A stretch of 64,000 nucleotides of DNA, taken from Verrucomicrobiia bacterium (GTDB lineage Bacteria; Verrucomicrobiota; Verrucomicrobiia; Limisphaerales; JAEYXS01). Below the pieces are notes generated by a model. It searched no databases. It saw only the letters and a list, made by a program, of their open reading frames with translations, and was not told where the DNA came from. This document shows positions 18,673-57,061 of the stretch, in pieces. A program made the translations under genes and the position numbers. Location: positions 1 to 64,000 of the forward strand of contig DASWYF010000040.1 in assembly GCA_036405135.1 (NCBI GenBank), in the 5' to 3' direction. Numbering within the stretch: position 1 is the stretch's first letter; the number at the start of each line of letters is the position of its first letter.

Positions 18673-19551
18673 TCACCCCCTGCTCTGCCTCAAAAACTTC
18701 TCCGGCGACAAACCATACACCGTCTTAAACGCCCGCGAAAAATTATACGGATCCGAAAATCCTAATTCCTCCGCCACCTCCTTCACCAATCGATTTCCTT
18801 CCAGCAACTGATTCGCCGCATGATTCATCTTCAGCCGCATCAAATACTGATACGGACTGCAATAATGAAACCTCTGAAACAACCGGCATGCATACGCCTC
18901 ATTCACATGCACCGAATCTGTCGCCTCAGTCAGCTTTCGAATCGCAAGAAAGTTCTCCTCCAGATGCCGCTTAAGTTTCTGGAATGTGTTCAACGCCCTC
19001 GTATCCGCATCACCCGAAGGCAAAGCCGATTCTGCCAGACGATAAAGCAACGCCTCCACCAAAGCCGCACAAACCTCATGTGCATGCTTGCGCCCGCCGA
19101 TTCCGTTTCGTTGCAGCAGTTCAAACAATTCTAACACTTCCGGCACATCTGCCACCATGACTGGCCGCTTTTGTCCAAGCGCTCCCAGCTCGATCTGCTT
19201 CTTCGCCATCGTCCCCGCGAAATCGACATAATACTTCAGCATCGGCTGTGCCGTTGAGGTGGTGATGCGATGTTTGATCCCCGGTGCGTAATGAAAAGCC
19301 GTCCCCGGCTTAAGTTCAAACTCTCTCCCATCCAACCAAACCATCCCCTCTCCCTCCGCGACAAACTCCACACAGTGAAATCGGAAATCCTCCCGCTGCA
19401 CTACATAATCCGGCAGACACCGTTCTCTCCCGCCACACACCGCCACCAGCTTCGCCGTCCTGCTCGGATTCAGGTCCAAGAAATACCGCTGGGCGTCTGT
19501 TACCTGATTGGAAACAAAATCTGGCTTCAACAGCTTCTGCCGTTTGCTCAT
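18673..19551 (-). CDS. AraC-family transcriptional regulator
   Basis: A 292-aa regulator with an N-terminal cupin-like sugar-sensing half (blocks such as FELKPGTAFHYAPG) and a C-terminal double helix-turn-helix. The second helix pair reads EVAEELGFSDPYNFSRAFK and is followed by the GLSPEKFLRQ end typical of the family. ATG 19551 (MSKRQ) is preferred to the TTG at 19560. It is divergent from the aldo/keto reductase gene, with 122 bp between the two starts. That gap holds a pair of direct repeats 21 bp apart, so the protein probably controls the sugar-oxidation genes to its right and perhaps itself. The effector is unknown; a sugar of that pathway is the obvious guess. Confidence 0.9.
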   Translation of the reverse strand: MSKRQKLLKPDFVSNQVTDAQRYFLDLNPSRTAKLVAVCGGRERCLPDYVVQREDFRFHCVEFVAEGEGMVWLDGREFELKPGTAFHYAPGIKHRITTSTAQPMLKYYVDFAGTMAKKQIELGALGQKRPVMVADVPEVLELFELLQRNGIGGRKHAHEVCAALVEALLYRLAESALPSGDADTRALNTFQKLKRHLEENFLAIRKLTEATDSVHVNEAYACRLFQRFHYCSPYQYLMRLKMNHAANQLLEGNRLVKEVAEELGFSDPYNFSRAFKTVYGLSPEKFLRQSRG

Positions 19552-19586
19552 GCAGAGCAAAATATCAGATTACCTTACACCAATGA

Positions 19587-19614
19587 AGTCAATTTGTGAC
19601 ATGCAGCAGTCAAT
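19587..19614. promoter_or_regulatory. Putative AraC-type operator (two direct repeats)
   Basis: AGTCAAT occurs at 19587-19593 and again at 19608-19614, in the same orientation with exactly 21 bp (two helical turns) from start to start. This is the geometry AraC-family dimers use to bind direct half-sites. The pair lies between the divergent regulator and aldo/keto reductase genes. Confidence 0.5.
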
Positions 19615-19673
19615 AAGCGCCATTTCTGATTCCGCTATTCTCGACTAGCTTGTCGCCAATAATTTTGACGCAC

Positions 19674-20606
19674 ATGCAAACACGCACCCTTGGTAAAACC
19701 GGCCTGAACCTTCCCATCCTCAGCTTCGGTGCTTCTTCGCTCGGTCAGGAGTTCCGGAGCGTCTCCATGGATGAAGCGCTTAAATCCGTGCGCGTGGCCT
19801 TGGACTGCGGACTGAACTTCATCGACACATCTCCCTTCTACGGTCGCGGCATGAGCGAGGTGTTGCTCGGCGTCGCCTTGCGTGGCGTCCCTCGCGATAG
19901 CTACACCCTTTGCACCAAACTGGGTCGTTACGATCTCCAGCACTTCGATTTCAGTGCCAAACGCGTTGCTGAAAGCGTCGACGTCTCCCTCCATCGTCTC
20001 GGCACCGACCACCTTGACATCATCCTGTGCCATGACATCGAGTTCGTAGAGATGCAACAAATCGTCGATGAAACCATCCCCGCGCTCCGCAAGATCCAGC
20101 AACAAGGCAAGGTGAAGCACATCGGCTTCAGCGGCTATCCGCAAAAGATTTTCAAATTCATCTGCGATCAAACTGATGTGGATTGCGCTCTCAGCTACAA
20201 TCAATACACCCTTCAAAACACCCGCTTCGCCGATGAATCCATTCCTTATCTGAAAGCTAAAGGCGTGGGTATCATGAACGCCGGTCCTTTTAGCGCTCGC
20301 TTGCTGACGAATGCACCGCTGCCCAAATGGCTCAAAGAACCCGAAGAAGTGAAAGCCGCCGCCCGAAAAGCTGCTGAGGTCTGCGCCCAGAAAGGCTCTG
20401 ACATCGCCAAGCTCGCCTTGCAATTCTCTCTGGCCAATCCCGATATCACCACCACCGTCGCCGGCAGTGCCAACCCCGAGAACATCCGCAACTGGGCGAA
20501 GTGGGCTGCTGAACCCATTGACGAGGAATTGCTCGCCGAAGTATTGAAGATTTTTGCTCCCGTCAAAAATATCGGCCACACAGAAGGCTTGCTGAAAAAC
20601 AACTAG
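19674..20606 (+). CDS. Aldo/keto reductase, L-galactose/L-fucose dehydrogenase type
   Basis: A 310-aa NAD(P)-dependent TIM-barrel oxidoreductase. ATG 19674 (MQTRTLGKTGL) fits the family start. The catalytic tetrad is visible: Asp and Tyr in DTSPFYGRG, Lys in LCTKLG and His in LCHDIEF. The length and the pattern GRGMSEVLLG, CALSYNQYTLQ and GVGIMNAGPFSARLL resemble plant L-galactose dehydrogenase and D-threo-aldose (L-fucose) 1-dehydrogenase, which oxidise the sugar C1 to a lactone. A fuconolactonase-type hydrolase three genes on supports this. It is the first gene after the AraC operator and probably heads the operon; 18 bp separate it from the next gene. Sugar specificity is inferred from context. 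Confidence 0.85.
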   Translation: MQTRTLGKTGLNLPILSFGASSLGQEFRSVSMDEALKSVRVALDCGLNFIDTSPFYGRGMSEVLLGVALRGVPRDSYTLCTKLGRYDLQHFDFSAKRVAESVDVSLHRLGTDHLDIILCHDIEFVEMQQIVDETIPALRKIQQQGKVKHIGFSGYPQKIFKFICDQTDVDCALSYNQYTLQNTRFADESIPYLKAKGVGIMNAGPFSARLLTNAPLPKWLKEPEEVKAAARKAAEVCAQKGSDIAKLALQFSLANPDITTTVAGSANPENIRNWAKWAAEPIDEELLAEVLKIFAPVKNIGHTEGLLKNN

Positions 20607-20624
20607 CCGACGCAAAATCCCCTC

Positions 20625-23600
20625 ATGCATCTGCGTTTCCTCCTTGTCCTGGCGCTCGCCGTTTTTACCGGCAATTCGCTTTGTGCCGCTGCGCCTGTTC
20701 CCTTGTTCGATGGCAAGACCTTCAACGGCTGGGAAGGCGAAACGAACAAGGTCTGGCGTGTGCAGGATGGCACCATCGTGGGTGGTACACTGAATGGCAA
20801 CCCGCAGAACGAGTTCTTAACCACGAAGAAAACTTACCGCAATTTCAACCTCACGCTGGAATACAAGTTGGTCGGCACCGAAGGTTTCGTGAATGGCGGC
20901 GTCCAGTTCCGCAGCAAACGTATCCCTGCTCCACCGAATGAGATGTCCGGTTACCAAGCCGACATCGGTGCCACCCATACCGGCTCTCTCTACGATGAGT
21001 CTCGCCGCAAAAAGATGCTCTATGTGGCGGATAAAGAGCTGATTTTAAAACTGGAAAAGACTAACGATTGGAACACCTATCAGATCATCGCCGAAGGCCA
21101 ACGTGTCCGCATACTGCTCAATGGGCGACAAACCGCAGATTACACCGAACGCGAGTCCGGCATCGAGCAAGATGGCGTCATTGCCCTGCAAATCCACGGT
21201 AACTGCAAAGCGGAGATTGCCTTCCGTAATATCAACATTGAAACCCTCCCCGACGCGCTTGTTCCGTCCGAGCCCGAAATTCTTGGCCGTTTTGGTGAAG
21301 GTCAGCCCGGCGCACCAATGCCCGGGTGGACCAATGGCAAGTTCGAACTCGGCACCAACGAAACCATCGTTTTCATCGGACAGGAAAATTTCGTCCGAGA
21401 GCAGAAAGCTGCCGAGTTGGAATCCCTGCTCGCTGCTGGTTTCAACACCAAGGCTCCTCGCTTTCGTTTCATGTCTTGGGAGGGCGACACCGTTTACGAA
21501 CAGTGGCGTGACCTAAACTTCGGCTCATGGGCCGCCCAACTCAATGCCGCCGGAGCCACCACCGTGATTGTGCAGTATGGGCAGATGGAATCACTCGATG
21601 GCACCAATCGCCTGACCGAATTCACCATCGCCTACCACCGCCTGCTCGACCAGTTCAACGCGCGTACCAAGCGCCTTGTCCTCGTCTCGCCCATGCCATT
21701 CGAGAAGCCCCTTGCTTCGCATGCACCTGATATCTCTCTGCGTAATGCTGACGTGAATGCATACGCCGCCGCCATCCAAGCCATCGCCAAGCAACGCGGC
21801 GCAGTTTATGTAGATCTCAACACTGCTCTATCTAAGCGTCCTAATAAAGCTGAGCGCCTGACTGAGGACGGCATTCATCTCACTCCCGACGGTCTGAGAA
21901 TTGTCGCACAAGTGATGGCGGCGGAACTCGGCTCCTTGACCGGACGGCAAAGCGTTCCACCAAGCCTGCGCGAAGCCATCATCGAGAAGAACCAGCTTTG
22001 GTTCGATGTCTGGCGTCCAGCCAACTGGTCCTTTGTATATGGCGATCGCGTTTCGCAGATGTTCGGCAAAGCGGGCGGCAACTCGCCTTCTCTGCGCGAA
22101 ACCTTTGAGCGCTATCGCCCACTCATCGCCAATGCTGACAGCCGTATACACGCTTTAGCTCGTGGCGAAAAAGCTCCTCCTCTAGTTGTTCCCAAACCTG
22201 CTGCACCTGCTGAGATCCCCGTCCTCTCCGCTGACGCACAGAAAGCCACATTCACGGTGGCTGATGGTTATGAGGTGAATTTGTTCGCTTCCGAAATTGA
22301 AGGCATTGCCAAGCCCACACAGTTCACCTGGGATGAACGTGGTCGCCTCTACGTCGCTTGCTCACCGACGTACCCGCAAACGTATGCCGCTGCCAAGCCC
22401 GCTGACTACATCGTCGTGTTGGAGGACACCGATGGCGATGGCAAGGCCGACAAGTCATGGCGCTTCGCTGAAGGCCTTACGATGATTCAAGGTTTGGAAA
22501 CTGGCCCCGGTGGCCTCTACGTCTGCGACTTTGATCAAATCCTTTTCCTGAAGGATACCAATAACGACGGCAAAGCCGATGAGCGTAAAGTGCTCTTCTC
22601 TGGCTTCGGCATTGGGGATACACATCAGCTGGTGAACTCCATTAGTCACGGTCCCGATGGCACGCTCTGGTTCACGCAAGGTTTGCACGCCTTCTCACGC
22701 GTAGAGACGCCGTGGGGCCTCACCAAGCTCGATAAAGCCGGTGTTTGGCGCTTCCATCCGAAACGTCTGCAACTGCAAGGCTTCTTCAACGGCGGCAAAG
22801 CCGGTCACAACTGCTGGGGTGTTGCCTTTGATGATTTCAATCAGCTCTTCCACAAAACCGGCGATCGTCCGGTTGGCTACTGGTCCGTGCCTGGTCTTAC
22901 AAAGAATGCAGCGCCGGACGAGTATCATGGTGTGGGTAATCTTTTTGATACATCACCCAAGACGACCTCGCTCGACATCATCGGCACGAAGGCATTGCCG
23001 GAAGACATCCAAGGCTGCGCAGTCATCGGCGGCTACTTTGGTAGCGTCGTGGAATTGCATCGCTTTGAGGACAGTGGCTCGGGATTTAAAACCACTCAGT
23101 TGCCCAAGCTGATGAAGTCATCGGACACTTCATTCCGCCCTGTTGATGTGAGTGTTGGTCCAGATGGCGCCATCTATCTTGCAGATTGGTTCAATCCTGT
23201 TATCGGCCATTATCAAGCCAGCTATGCTGATCCTCGTCGTGATAAAACGCATGGCCGTATCTGGCGCATCACTGCTAAGGGACGCCCGACAGTGAAACAA
23301 CCAAACCTCGCCGCGATGAAGGCTGAGGAACTCGTGGCGCAACTCGCTTCTCCCGAACGCTGGACTCGTTATCAAGCCAAGCGATTGCTCTTCTACACAC
23401 CCACCGCTGAAACACTTCGCGCAGTTGATAACTGGGTTGCCAAACTTACTCCTGCTACTCCCGGTTATGAACGTTTGCTGCTCGAAGCCATCGGCATCTA
23501 CGAGGCTCATGAAACGACGCAACGCGAACTGCTCGGTAAACTTCTCGCCGCCAAAGACCCGCGCGTGCGCGCCTATGGCACACGCGTGATTGGCAATTGG

Positions 23601-24266
23601 GCCACGAAATTACCCAATGCTGAAGCTCTGTTGAACGACCGCATCCGTGACGAAAATGCACGTGTTCGCCTAGAAGCAGTTGTTGCCGCCAGCTACGTCA
23701 CCAATGCCGCAGCCGCAGAGATCATCACCAAGGCTCTCGATACACCACGCGATCGCTTCTTGGATTACGCCTTGGCCCAAAGCGCTCGCTCGCTCAAACC
23801 CGTTTGGGAACCTGCTCTTGCCGCCAATCAGCTCAAACTGGATGCGCCGCATCGTGAGTATCTATTAAAACTCTCCACTGCTGTTGCTGCGCCTTCGCCG
23901 GGTCGCATCATTTATGAGATGGCCTGCCTGCCCTGCCATCAACCGGATGGCAAAGGTTTGGCCGGTGTCTATCCATCCCTTGTCAGCAGCGATTGGCTGA
24001 AGGGCGATACATCCCGACTTATCAAAGTGGTGCTGCACGGCCTCGAAGGACCGATCACGCTGAATGGCCAGCCGTTCGTGATGCAGAATCCGATCCCTAT
24101 GCCTTCCATGGCCGGCCTCGAAGATCAGCAGATTGCAGACGTATTGACCTACATCCGTACGGAGTTCAATCAATCGCAGCAGGCAGTCACTGCTGCTGAA
24201 GTCAAAGCCGTTCGCGCTGCCACCACAGGTCGTGAAACACCTTGGAAGGCGGAAGAGCTCAAATAA
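20625..24266 (+). CDS. Secreted DUF1080 / SGNH-like / PVC-type dehydrogenase / cytochrome c fusion
   Basis: A 1213-aa exported multidomain protein; MHLRFLLVLALAVFTG is the signal peptide. Domains in order: DUF1080 (3-keto-disaccharide hydrolase-like, about 26-208, LFDGKTFNGWEG...), an SGNH-hydrolase-like domain (about 215-445), a PVC-type membrane-bound dehydrogenase propeller (about 545-905, with DTDGDGKAD and DTNNDGKADE calcium-like loops), HEAT-like helices (about 930-1070), and a cytochrome c domain with CLPCH at 1101-1105 and a possible Met ligand in PMPSM. In the SGNH part the first block reads FIGQEN, with no GDS serine, although the late DGIHLT block is kept, so it may not hydrolyse. 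Fused, these suggest oxidation of a carbohydrate with electrons passed to heme, possibly together with glycoside cleavage. Its place in the putative sugar operon fits this. Confidence 0.88.
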   Translation: MHLRFLLVLALAVFTGNSLCAAAPVPLFDGKTFNGWEGETNKVWRVQDGTIVGGTLNGNPQNEFLTTKKTYRNFNLTLEYKLVGTEGFVNGGVQFRSKRIPAPPNEMSGYQADIGATHTGSLYDESRRKKMLYVADKELILKLEKTNDWNTYQIIAEGQRVRILLNGRQTADYTERESGIEQDGVIALQIHGNCKAEIAFRNINIETLPDALVPSEPEILGRFGEGQPGAPMPGWTNGKFELGTNETIVFIGQENFVREQKAAELESLLAAGFNTKAPRFRFMSWEGDTVYEQWRDLNFGSWAAQLNAAGATTVIVQYGQMESLDGTNRLTEFTIAYHRLLDQFNARTKRLVLVSPMPFEKPLASHAPDISLRNADVNAYAAAIQAIAKQRGAVYVDLNTALSKRPNKAERLTEDGIHLTPDGLRIVAQVMAAELGSLTGRQSVPPSLREAIIEKNQLWFDVWRPANWSFVYGDRVSQMFGKAGGNSPSLRETFERYRPLIANADSRIHALARGEKAPPLVVPKPAAPAEIPVLSADAQKATFTVADGYEVNLFASEIEGIAKPTQFTWDERGRLYVACSPTYPQTYAAAKPADYIVVLEDTDGDGKADKSWRFAEGLTMIQGLETGPGGLYVCDFDQILFLKDTNNDGKADERKVLFSGFGIGDTHQLVNSISHGPDGTLWFTQGLHAFSRVETPWGLTKLDKAGVWRFHPKRLQLQGFFNGGKAGHNCWGVAFDDFNQLFHKTGDRPVGYWSVPGLTKNAAPDEYHGVGNLFDTSPKTTSLDIIGTKALPEDIQGCAVIGGYFGSVVELHRFEDSGSGFKTTQLPKLMKSSDTSFRPVDVSVGPDGAIYLADWFNPVIGHYQASYADPRRDKTHGRIWRITAKGRPTVKQPNLAAMKAEELVAQLASPERWTRYQAKRLLFYTPTAETLRAVDNWVAKLTPATPGYERLLLEAIGIYEAHETTQRELLGKLLAAKDPRVRAYGTRVIGNWATKLPNAEALLNDRIRDENARVRLEAVVAASYVTNAAAAEIITKALDTPRDRFLDYALAQSARSLKPVWEPALAANQLKLDAPHREYLLKLSTAVAAPSPGRIIYEMACLPCHQPDGKGLAGVYPSLVSSDWLKGDTSRLIKVVLHGLEGPITLNGQPFVMQNPIPMPSMAGLEDQQIADVLTYIRTEFNQSQQAVTAAEVKAVRAATTGRETPWKAEELK

Positions 24267-24288
24267 CTTAGCCGAATTTCCGGATACC

Positions 24289-25314
24289 ATGAAAGCCATC
24301 CAACTCGAGAAGCCTCTTTCCTTCCGTCACATCGAAATCCCTGAAGCGCCTCAGCCCGCTGCGGGTGAAGTGCTCGTGCGCATTCATCGCGTAGGCATTT
24401 GTGGCACCGATCTATCCGGTTACCTCGGCAAGATGCCTTTCTTCAGCTACCCGCGCATTCCCGGTCATGAACTAGGCGTGGAAGTCATCGCGATCGGCGA
24501 TGGAGTCACGAATGTTAAAATTGGTGATCGCTGTTCCGTGGAGCCGTATATCAATTGCGGCCAATGCTATTCCTGCCGCCGTGGCCATACGAATTGCTGC
24601 GAGAGCAACAAGACGTTGGGCGTGATGTGCGACGGCGGCCTGACTGAGCGCATGATTCTTCCCGCACGAAAGCTCCATGTCTCGCGTAAGCTCACTTTCG
24701 ATCAATTGGCATTGGTAGAGACACTCGCCATCGGCTGCCATGCAGTGAATCGTGGTAATCCCAAGGCGGGCGAGCACGTTCTGGTCATCGGTGCTGGCCC
24801 GATTGGTTTGAGTGCCATCGAATTCGCCAAGCTCTCCGGTGCCAAGACCATAGTCATGGACATGAACGAGCAACGCCTCGCTTTTGTCCGCGAGAAGATG
24901 GGCGTGCCGGATACGATTCTGACCAAGAATGATGGTGAAGAATTGAAACGCCTTGCTGAACTTACCAATGGACAACTTGCGGATGTGGTGGTCGATGCCA
25001 CAGGCAGCAATAATTCCATGGCTCATGCGCTGAACTACTGCGCTTTCCTTGGCCGACTTGTTTACGTGGGCATTACGCAGCAGGAAATATCTTTCCTCCA
25101 TGCACCTGCCCTGCATCGCCGCGAACTGACCATTCTCGCGAGCCGCAATGCACTGCCGGGTGATTTCACTCGTATCATCAAGTTGATTGAAGATGGCCAG
25201 ATCAATACGAACACTTGGATCACACACAACTCATCCTTCGAAGGCATGATTGATGCATTCCCAAGCTGGGTGAAACCTGAAACAGGTGTGATCAAAGCTA
25301 TTGTCGCCGTATAA
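24289..25314 (+). CDS. Zinc-dependent medium-chain dehydrogenase (sorbitol/threonine dehydrogenase-like)
   Basis: A 341-aa MDR-family NAD(P)-dependent alcohol dehydrogenase. ATG 24289 (MKAIQLEKPL) is chosen over 24232, which would read into the previous gene's end. Catalytic zinc ligands are Cys in GICGTD and His/Glu in PGHELGVE; the four structural zinc cysteines lie in CGQCYSCRRGHTNC. The nucleotide fold shows VIGAGPIGLSAIEFAK. It sits 22 bp after the PVC-dehydrogenase fusion and 11 bp before the amidohydrolase. In an L-fucose type oxidative route it could oxidise the 2-keto-3-deoxy acid or a related polyol intermediate, but this is inference; no dehydratase is in the window. Confidence 0.88.
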   Translation: MKAIQLEKPLSFRHIEIPEAPQPAAGEVLVRIHRVGICGTDLSGYLGKMPFFSYPRIPGHELGVEVIAIGDGVTNVKIGDRCSVEPYINCGQCYSCRRGHTNCCESNKTLGVMCDGGLTERMILPARKLHVSRKLTFDQLALVETLAIGCHAVNRGNPKAGEHVLVIGAGPIGLSAIEFAKLSGAKTIVMDMNEQRLAFVREKMGVPDTILTKNDGEELKRLAELTNGQLADVVVDATGSNNSMAHALNYCAFLGRLVYVGITQQEISFLHAPALHRRELTILASRNALPGDFTRIIKLIEDGQINTNTWITHNSSFEGMIDAFPSWVKPETGVIKAIVAV

Positions 25315-25325
25315 CACTCACGTCT

Positions 25326-26153
25326 ATGCGTTTGGATAGCCATCAGCATTTTTGGAACTACAGCAGCGAGCAGTATCCATGGATCCAGCCGTCGTGGCCA
25401 ATTAAGCGCACATTCTTACCAAACGATTTGGCACCACTGCTTGCGCAAGCCAACCTCGATGGCTGTATCGCCGTGCAAGCACGTCAGACGCTGGAAGAAT
25501 CTCGTTGGTTGCTGGAGCTCGCTGACCAGTCTCCCGTCATCAAAGGTGTCGTTGGCTGGGTGGATCTGCGTTCAGACAAAGTTGAGGAACAGCTCGCACA
25601 ATTTGCCAAGCATCCGAAATTCGTTGGAGTCCGTCATGTCGTACAGGATGAACCGGATGATGATTTCATGCTGCGACCGGAATTTCTTCGCGGCCTCAGC
25701 AAGTTAAAGCAGTTCAACTTGCGCTACGATATCCTCATCTATCCGAAACAATTGCCTGCGGCTATCAAGCTGACTCAACAATTCCCCGAGCAACCTTTCG
25801 TGCTGGATCACATCGCCAAGCCGCACATCAAGGACGGCAGCCTGTCACCATGGCGTGAACAGATACAGGAACTGGCGAAAGCACCGAACTTGATGTGCAA
25901 AGTCTCCGGCATGATCACGGAAGCCAAGTGGCAAGGCTGGCGCTATGACCACTTTGTTCCCTATATGGACGTGGTGGCAGAAGCTTTCGGAACAAATCGC
26001 TTGATGTATGGTTCCGATTGGCCGGTCTGCTTGCTTGCGGGTTCTTATCCGCAAGTTTACAGCATGGCGCAGAAGTATTTCTCCCGGGAAAGCGAAGCCA
26101 ATCAAGCCAGGGTGTTCGGAGGCAATGCGGCAAAATTCTATCTGACGCGATGA
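25326..26153 (+). CDS. Amidohydrolase, L-fucono-1,5-lactonase type (COG3618)
   Basis: A 275-aa TIM-barrel metallohydrolase. The start MRLDSHQHFW puts the metal-binding HxH (H6, H8) in its usual place. Further marks are the QARQTLEESRWLL strand, VRHVVQDEPDD, FVLDHIAKPHI and the terminal GSDWPVCLLAG with its catalytic Asp. COG3618 members hydrolyse sugar lactones such as L-fuconolactone, L-galactono- and L-rhamnonolactone. This suits a lactone made by the aldo/keto reductase at 19674. The stop overlaps the next start by ATGA. Confidence 0.85.
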   Translation: MRLDSHQHFWNYSSEQYPWIQPSWPIKRTFLPNDLAPLLAQANLDGCIAVQARQTLEESRWLLELADQSPVIKGVVGWVDLRSDKVEEQLAQFAKHPKFVGVRHVVQDEPDDDFMLRPEFLRGLSKLKQFNLRYDILIYPKQLPAAIKLTQQFPEQPFVLDHIAKPHIKDGSLSPWREQIQELAKAPNLMCKVSGMITEAKWQGWRYDHFVPYMDVVAEAFGTNRLMYGSDWPVCLLAGSYPQVYSMAQKYFSRESEANQARVFGGNAAKFYLTR

Positions 26154-56169: not shown

Positions 56170-56955
56170 TTAGAAATTCGTATCCGCATCCTTCAGATCC
56201 AGTTCCTTGATCCACGCATTTCTATACCGCACATCATGGCCCTCCGCTTGCAGCTTCAATCCCTGCGGCGTGTCCGTGATCCCCTTGCCCCCGTCATTGC
56301 CGCCATCCACGCCCGAGTTCGCTCCGCCCCAGACTTTCTGGATCTGCACGTTGTCATGCACTTTCTTGCCGTTAAAATACATCGTCACCATCGCCTTCTC
56401 CACCAGCTTGCCATCCTTGAAACGGGCAGCACGGAACACGATGTCATAGGAGTTCCACTTGCCAAGTCCGGCGAAGCTGTCATACGGCGAATCCGTCTCA
56501 TTGATCACTGCGCCCATGCCATGCTTGGTCTTGTCGCCTTCTTGGATCTGGATCTCATAACGATTCTGCAGATACACGCCGCTGTTGCCTTTAGGATTCA
56601 CCACGAGGAATTCGATGTGCAGACGGAAATCGCGATACGCCTTCTTCGTCAGGATATCTGCCGCACCATACTTGCCACCAGCGGCAGCAGGGTCATCCGT
56701 CATCACCACCGTACCCTTGTCCACCGGATCATCCACGATCTTCCATTTGATGGGCAGCGAAGAACCAAACCGCGGCCCTTCCCAATACGTCCACTTCTCA
56801 TCCAACATCTTGCGTGAGCCATCGATGATGACTTCCGCACCTTCAATCGGCTTCGCACCGAGGCCGATGTTCTTATCGGCGGCAACCGCGCCGGATTGGA
56901 AAGTAAGCATCGCCGCCAGCAGCGGCACAAAGGAAAGGGCTTTCAGGCTTTTCAT
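56170..56955 (-). CDS. Secreted DUF1080 protein (3-keto-disaccharide hydrolase-like)
   Basis: A 261-aa exported single-domain DUF1080 protein. ATG 56955 (MKSLKALSFVPLLAAMLT) begins the signal peptide; the ORF to 56994 adds unrelated residues. Domain marks: WKIVDDPVDKGTVVMTDD, KKAYRDFRLHIEFLV, GNSGVYLQNRYEIQIQEG and WNSYDIVFRAARF. Family members are lectin-like and some cleave 3-keto-glycosides. It is divergent from a GH5-type enzyme across 106 bp, so the two may share control and act on one glycan. The active residues cannot be set by eye. Confidence 0.88.
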   Translation of the reverse strand: MKSLKALSFVPLLAAMLTFQSGAVAADKNIGLGAKPIEGAEVIIDGSRKMLDEKWTYWEGPRFGSSLPIKWKIVDDPVDKGTVVMTDDPAAAGGKYGAADILTKKAYRDFRLHIEFLVVNPKGNSGVYLQNRYEIQIQEGDKTKHGMGAVINETDSPYDSFAGLGKWNSYDIVFRAARFKDGKLVEKAMVTMYFNGKKVHDNVQIQKVWGGANSGVDGGNDGGKGITDTPQGLKLQAEGHDVRYRNAWIKELDLKDADTNF

Positions 56956-57061
56956 CGTGTGAATGATGGCAGGATGATGCCACGTGCTGTTCATTCAAGC
57001 AACATCCAAGCTTGCACTGCCGCCAATGCCTGCCAACACTTTCATTATCCACACTAAAGCG

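Follow-up and report, generated by a model that had tools for sequence, protein, structure and literature searches.

Gene and domain architecture

The window analysed here, the whole 64,000-nucleotide stretch of contig DASWYF010000040.1 from a Verrucomicrobiia bacterium (assembly GCA_036405135.1), encodes a predicted exported protein of 1213 residues in which a domain of the SGNH hydrolase fold, lacking its catalytic nucleophile, is joined to a propeller and a cytochrome. The gene (20625..24266, + strand, as are all parts of it given below) starts with ATG, its frame is open throughout, and it is full-length in relatives. An earlier note on this DNA, made from the sequence alone, had described a secreted four-part fusion in one protein, composed of a DUF1080 domain of the 3-keto-glycoside type, an SGNH-like domain, a PVC dehydrogenase propeller and a CLPCH cytochrome. 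The single fused protein and the named parts are borne out, but the count of four is not, as a fifth part, a HEAT-like helical segment, had been overlooked. Secretion agrees with a hydrophobic, signal-peptide-like N-terminus, predicted by eye at residues ~1-22 (MHLRFLLVLALAVFTGNSLCAA; 20625..20690).

The first domain, DUF1080 or 3keto-disac_hyd (PF06439; residues 25-205, 20697..21239), scores 131.5 bits against a Pfam cut-off of 26.8. It is followed by the SGNH-fold domain, for which Pfam reports Lipase_GDSL_2 (PF13472) at residues 266-425 (45.9 bits, cut-off 32.9); comparison with relatives extends the domain to residues 222-505 (21288..22139), including a C-terminal WRPANWSFVYGDR extension. 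The six-bladed propeller (residues 538-890, 22236..23294) is recognized both by structural match and by profiles, namely DUF7133 at 540-885 (233.2 bits, cut-off 27) and TIGR02604, the PVC-type heme-binding CxxCH protein family (223.1 bits, curated cut-off 122.2). The HEAT-like segment (residues 891-1082, 23295..23870) is all-helical in the full-length model and matches HEAT_2 (PF13646) at 969-1053, with 28.1 bits against a cut-off of 27.7. Last comes a class I cytochrome c (PF00034, Cytochrom_C; residues 1093-1179, 23901..24161; 36.0 bits, cut-off 21.3) with a CxxCH haem site at C1101-H1105 (23925-23939) and, judged by conservation, a candidate distal ligand in M1159 (24099-24101). The related TIGR02603 haem domain matches this protein only below threshold. 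Three motifs singled out previously, FIGQEN (inside FIGQENFVREQ, G252-N255), DGIHLT (415-420) and CLPCH (1101-1105), are all found at the positions quoted for them. The model of the full-length protein has a predicted local distance difference test score (pLDDT) of 88.8 and a predicted template modelling (TM) score of 0.78.

Conservation of the fusion

The same architecture is present in full-length relatives at 86, 68 and 64% identity, from the same genus and from other families, and among 384 genomes drawn from the class there are further full-length matches at 53-69% in several families. GTDB genomes were also scanned with the SGNH part as the query, yielding 80 named orthologous loci, to which the counts below refer. 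Conservation on this scale goes well past what chance would give. All five parts occur in the same order and in a single open frame in 66 of the 80; six have no DUF1080 match, and eight others are incomplete, several of them through contig ends. The five-part loci belong mainly to Verrucomicrobiota, with the addition of Cyclobacterium (Bacteroidota), and the loci include sequenced isolates of Verrucomicrobium, Brevifollis (B. gellanilyticus) and Cyclobacterium (three isolates). Because Cyclobacterium carries the complete five-part protein (L181, L187 and L188), horizontal transfer from Verrucomicrobiota is suggested.

The breadth of this set bears on whether neighbouring genes were fused by a sequencing or assembly artefact, as the earlier note had allowed. 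The SGNH part does stand as a separate upstream gene in some relatives, but an identical join in 66 of 80 loci, the isolates included, together with the full-length relatives, rules out an erroneous join and leaves such an artefact with a practically negligible probability.

At one locus (genome G392, L102:6998-10608, - strand), the DUF1080 part (query residues 4-132) and the remainder appear as two matches, through a frameshift or a broken gene. The public metagenome-assembled genomes behind L112, L113 and L118 are titled Proteobacteria, Akkermansia muciniphila and Klebsiella pneumoniae, names that seem mistaken given the Verrucomicrobial protein on their contigs.

The SGNH domain

Residues 219-527 were modelled with AlphaFold, using 59 relatives as input; the model has a mean pLDDT of 91.9 and an SGNH fold. 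It matches the SGNH esterases BT4096 (7br2; Z 19.7 over 268 residues), 4q9a (Z 19.3), LAE5 (5jd3; Z 18.4) and Axe2 (Z 18), and the ten best structural matches have root-mean-square deviations (rmsd) of 2.6-3.7 Å over 182-268 residues. The PF13472 alignment begins only at profile position 24, however, leaving block I unrecognized. In the model, strand 1 (247-252) ends at Gly252 and helix 1 begins at Glu254, the site at which SGNH hydrolases place their serine (PMC9487903). The equivalence of Glu254 to the nucleophile is thus drawn from the alignment and from secondary structure, that is, from its position after the end of strand 1 and in the first turn of helix 1.

Block I, G252-Q253-E254-N255 (21378..21389), therefore has Glu in place of the nucleophile, and serine is found at this position in none of the 80 orthologues (Glu in 64, Thr in 12, Ala in 2, Asn in 1 and Asp in 1). 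In block III, G319-Q320-M321-E322 (21579..21590), Met321 takes the place of the oxyanion Asn; the orthologues have Met, Val, Thr, Ile or Leu here, and never Asn. Block II retains Gly287 (21483..21485) in the window protein, with Ala in 44 of 80 orthologues. Block V, D415-G-I-H418 (21867..21878), is likewise kept in the window protein, and position 415 is Asp in 53 orthologues and Asn in 27. His418, found in 80 of 80, is the sole classical catalytic or oxyanion position that is fixed. The absence of a serine nucleophile from FIGQEN and the preservation of the DGIHLT end had both been pointed out from the sequence, and both hold, the former in the predicted structure as well. The proposal of a non-catalytic or altered domain is sound as regards the nucleophile, but the loss goes deeper than was noted, extending to the block III Asn and, among orthologues, to drift in the block II Gly and block V Asp.

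Residues around these positions behave differently. Q253, N255, D288, Q320, E322, G416 and H418 are invariant in 81 of 81 alignment rows, and G319 is invariant among the orthologues. With the catalytic positions drifting while neighbouring pocket residues are frozen, a binding or positioning role is to be expected rather than decay, and the domain looks like a pseudo-hydrolase with a repurposed, non-hydrolytic pocket. There is precedent in CtCE2, whose catalytically active SGNH site doubles as a non-catalytic carbohydrate-binding site (PMC2661963). Compared with SGNH/GDSL hydrolases of PF13472, such as BT4096, Axe2 and LAE5, the domain thus shares the fold (Z 18-20) and the block V DxxH motif, but differs in lacking the block I Ser and the block III Asn and in bearing the extra WRPANWSFVYGDR extension. 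This extension, past the SGNH core (residues 463-475, 22011-22049), is nearly invariant in fused and separate forms alike, and the propeller probably docks onto it.

It might instead be supposed that the domain is still catalytic by a changed mechanism, using Glu254 or the His/Asp pair, as an altered esterase, a lyase or a transferase. The invariant His418, the constant presence of Asp or Asn at 415 among the 80 orthologues, and the strong constraint on the pocket evident from Q253, Q320 and E322 would suit such an enzyme, as would the resemblance of GQEN to a Gln-Ser-Asn block I with the Ser exchanged. Yet orthologues of identical architecture have Glu, Thr, Ala, Asn or Asp at position 254, and L075, a further full-length relative at 53% identity, has lost the entire DxxH motif. 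Retained catalysis is accordingly considered quite unlikely.

The comparison with a Gln-Ser-Asn block I concerns the SASA/CE6 esterases, in which an inverted oxyanion hole is built from the block I Gln and a QGE motif (PMC9487903). GQEN (253-255; 21381-21389) and GQME (319-322; 21579-21590) resemble the GQSN and QGE of that family with the Ser and Gly exchanged, a likeness that may reflect convergence or a distant tie. Membership among the SASA/CE6 acetylesterases was rejected, since the Ser is absent, the motifs are only similar, and among the matches listed at E<=1 for 29 members there is none to a SASA profile, which also speaks against residual catalysis.

An SGNH clade linked to PVC dehydrogenases

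The host genome has 21 SGNH matches. In five of these proteins, those linked to PVC dehydrogenases, the PF13472 match starts only from position 20-58, and block I reads GQEN, GNSL, GDTF, GGGL and GNTF. As a control, the profile match begins at position 1-2 in 15 of the other 16, most with a recognizable GDS or GGS. Across 138 family members, Ser is found at the nucleophile column in two (none of the 80 orthologues and 2 of the 58 others). By these sequence comparisons, nucleophile loss is a trait of the whole PVC-dehydrogenase-linked SGNH clade and is not peculiar to the window protein.

In 11 of 11 split loci, the separate SGNH gene immediately precedes that of the dehydrogenase, in the same orientation. 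Fusion in some genomes and adjacency in others is strong evidence that the SGNH domain and the dehydrogenase work together, and the pattern suggests that the former is a regular partner of the PVC dehydrogenase family.

The propeller and the cytochrome

The closest structural matches to the propeller are dehydrogenases for sugars, glucose and aldoses that depend on pyrroloquinoline quinone (PQQ), along with AA12 (Z 28.0, 26.8, 26.3, 26.0, 25.6 and 25.3). The first of these, the PQQ-dependent sugar dehydrogenase 3a9g, superimposes over 288 residues with an rmsd of 3.0 Å in VIA-align. The likeness to PQQ sugar dehydrogenases (sGDH, Asd, AA12 pyranose dehydrogenase) thus lies in a six-bladed propeller of the sGDH type. 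AA12 pyranose dehydrogenase also has a cytochrome. The window propeller differs in that its sequence similarity to these enzymes is below the level of membership, and its host has no PqqE over cut-off.

Six-bladed propellers of other function are not far behind, as DFPase, SMP30/gluconolactonase-like proteins and the lactonase RPA3624 match at Z ~24. It may be that the propeller is lactonase-like, esterase-like or purely structural, and that the cytochrome serves another partner; that the "dehydrogenase" in the family's name is itself based on similarity would be in keeping with this, as would the result for PqqE. However, the PQQ sugar dehydrogenases lead by 2-4 Z units, and a propeller-cytochrome fusion is the usual TIGR02604 layout and parallels PQQ dehydrogenase-cytochrome proteins. 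A propeller that is not a dehydrogenase is therefore thought unlikely.

The cytochrome domain has as its nearest solved relative the cytochrome domain of a three-domain copper nitrite reductase (E 8e-19). C1101, C1104, H1105 and M1159 each reach 98% conservation or more in 72 rows, and from its sequence the domain is a monohaem class I cytochrome c with a Met ligand. Other PVC-type heme-binding CxxCH proteins (TIGR02604/DUF7133), which are akin to the "Planctomycete-specific cytochromes" (PMC5615132), share the propeller and C-terminal c-type haem and occur as dozens of paralogues per genome. The window protein departs from them in the DUF1080 and pseudo-SGNH domains in front, in the class I cytochrome with a Met ligand and in the sub-threshold TIGR02603 match. 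The host genome has 30 TIGR02604 matches.

The DUF1080 domain

The DUF1080 part is nearest among solved structures to BT3469 (4jqt), an uncharacterized DUF1080 protein, both by sequence (E 2e-25) and in Foldseek (E 4e-12). Further relatives are, by their PDB titles, 3-keto-glycoside hydrolases, eliminases or hydratases (8rr2, 9fbe, 8tda and 8v31). Among the DUF1080-like Foldseek matches listed, the highest target-normalized TM scores (0.71-0.78) are those of CBM66 chains, as against 0.50-0.55 for the characterized 3-keto enzymes. Given these scores, catalysis by the domain is not assured. The known DUF1080 hydrolases, eliminases and hydratases acting on 3-keto-glycosides (BT2157 and AL2, with BT3469 uncharacterized) are like the window domain in family, fold and export. 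They also have a functional tie to dehydrogenase-cytochrome systems, as DUF1080 enzymes act together with the cytochrome-linked LacABC (PMC9007349). The window domain is unlike the known enzymes in being shorter and in being fused to a putative dehydrogenase and a haem. Gluconate_2-dh3, the LacC-like partner, occurs in a single copy in the host genome, away from the fusion, and hence there is no linked LacABC system.

The domain could be merely a carbohydrate-binding module, in which case the protein would have two binding domains, would act as a sugar dehydrogenase and would cleave no glycosidic bond. This would fit its shortness (~187 residues), the CBM66 scores, the approximately six orthologues without it and the known overlap between DUF1080 and CBM66 annotations (PMC5673643). 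Its conservation, on the other hand, exceeds what a plain binding fold needs, as 54 positions, among them those of NEF, Q.D and LYDESRR, reach 98% conservation or more in 71 rows, and its closest solved sequence is a DUF1080 protein, BT3469. A binding-only domain is a real possibility, if a somewhat doubtful one.

A second, stand-alone DUF1080 protein is encoded within the window (56170-56994, - strand; 100.9 bits), and the host genome has ~28 DUF1080 matches over cut-off.

Proposed role

Architecture, conservation, fold, the loss of the nucleophile and oxyanion Asn, and the haem motif with its Met ligand are read directly from sequence or model. From these, we propose with about even confidence that the window protein is an exported, probably periplasmic, single-chain carbohydrate oxidoreductase that passes electrons to its own haem, with the DUF1080 and pseudo-SGNH domains as substrate-handling modules. 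After export, the six-bladed propeller would oxidize a sugar and its electrons would move within the molecule to the C-terminal class I c-type haem, and from there to the respiratory chain. The HEAT segment would connect the propeller and the haem domain. The N-terminal DUF1080 domain may bind the sugar or process a keto-sugar, and the pseudo-SGNH pocket may have been retuned to bind or position the substrate, by analogy to CtCE2, or to hold the propeller.

Several points weigh against this proposal. The lactonase- or esterase-type propellers are just 2-4 Z units below the dehydrogenases, and the propeller profile reaches the PQQ enzyme structure 2g8s only weakly (E 0.018), over an R-D-GPDG-Y blade in which PQQ-site residues are weakly aligned. 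A search for PQQ synthesis found no PqqE over cut-off in the 98% complete host genome, so PQQ would have to be scavenged or another cofactor used. The DUF1080 domain is dispensable to the core, judging by the orthologues that lack it; the sugar-catabolic operon around the gene is kept only within the genus; and we found no experimental work in the literature on any member of the fusion family.

The earlier note had gone further, suggesting that the protein couples the cleavage of glycans to their oxidation and to electron transfer, which is plausible by analogy from the parts, a propeller like that of PQQ sugar dehydrogenases and a cytochrome with a Met ligand. In its fullest form, the protein would be a self-contained oxidative glycosidase, with the propeller oxidizing a glycoside (C3 being one possible site), the DUF1080 domain cleaving the keto-glycoside through elimination or hydration, the haem carrying off the electrons and the SGNH pocket holding the sugar between sites. 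This fullest form is rather unlikely. If true, one oxidative glycosidase chain would do the work that the LacABC/DUF1080 pathway divides among a dehydrogenase, a cytochrome and a hydrolase.

Every domain is of a known kind, but we found no earlier description of a conserved fusion whose SGNH pocket is systematically inactivated, and no literature on DUF7133 or on an SGNH domain joined with a PVC haem protein. Genomes of Verrucomicrobia and Planctomycetes each carry dozens of propeller-cytochrome proteins of unknown function, a point made in PMC5615132 for the related PSCyt genes. The fusion links one group of these PVC cytochromes to a domain active on sugars and to an esterase fold that has been systematically inactivated, and makes the substrate, the electron transfer and the role of the pseudo-SGNH domain addressable on one soluble protein.

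Genomic neighbourhood

The fusion gene lies within a tight, putative operon (18673-26153). An aldo/keto reductase gene (19674..20606, +), kept in both congeners at 91-94%, ends 18 base pairs (bp) upstream of it, and a divergent AraC-type regulator (18673..19560, -), which is likewise a neighbour in one congener, lies beyond. A zinc alcohol dehydrogenase gene (24289..25314, +), kept in a congener at 92%, begins 22 bp downstream and is followed after 11 bp by an amidohydrolase gene (25326..26153, +; 86% in a congener). The latter is L-fucono-1,5-lactonase-like, at 284 bits, below the NCBI cut-off of 400. One congener keeps all neighbours but AraC, with a wider gap before the zinc alcohol dehydrogenase; in the other, the contig stops within the fusion, and the upstream genes are kept. 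The adjacent lactonase-like gene, the two reductase and dehydrogenase genes and the regulator point tentatively, in this genus, to a sugar of the L-fucose or L-galactose type.

Thirty loci of other families share no neighbour besides the fusion itself. A conserved operon was accordingly rejected as a clue to the function of the fusion, as the aldo/keto reductase, zinc alcohol dehydrogenase, lactonase and AraC genes are conserved only in the genus; with other neighbours elsewhere, the context is no more than a hint. In a genome of another family (G009), a zinc alcohol dehydrogenase 83% identical to that of the window and the fusion are 5.5 kilobases apart, separated by genes for a LamG protein and a sulfatase. 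The genes near the fusion there (L108:1533-8074), which encode the LamG-like protein, the sulfatase, a metallo-beta-lactamase-fold protein and this dehydrogenase, give a hint of sulfated glycans.

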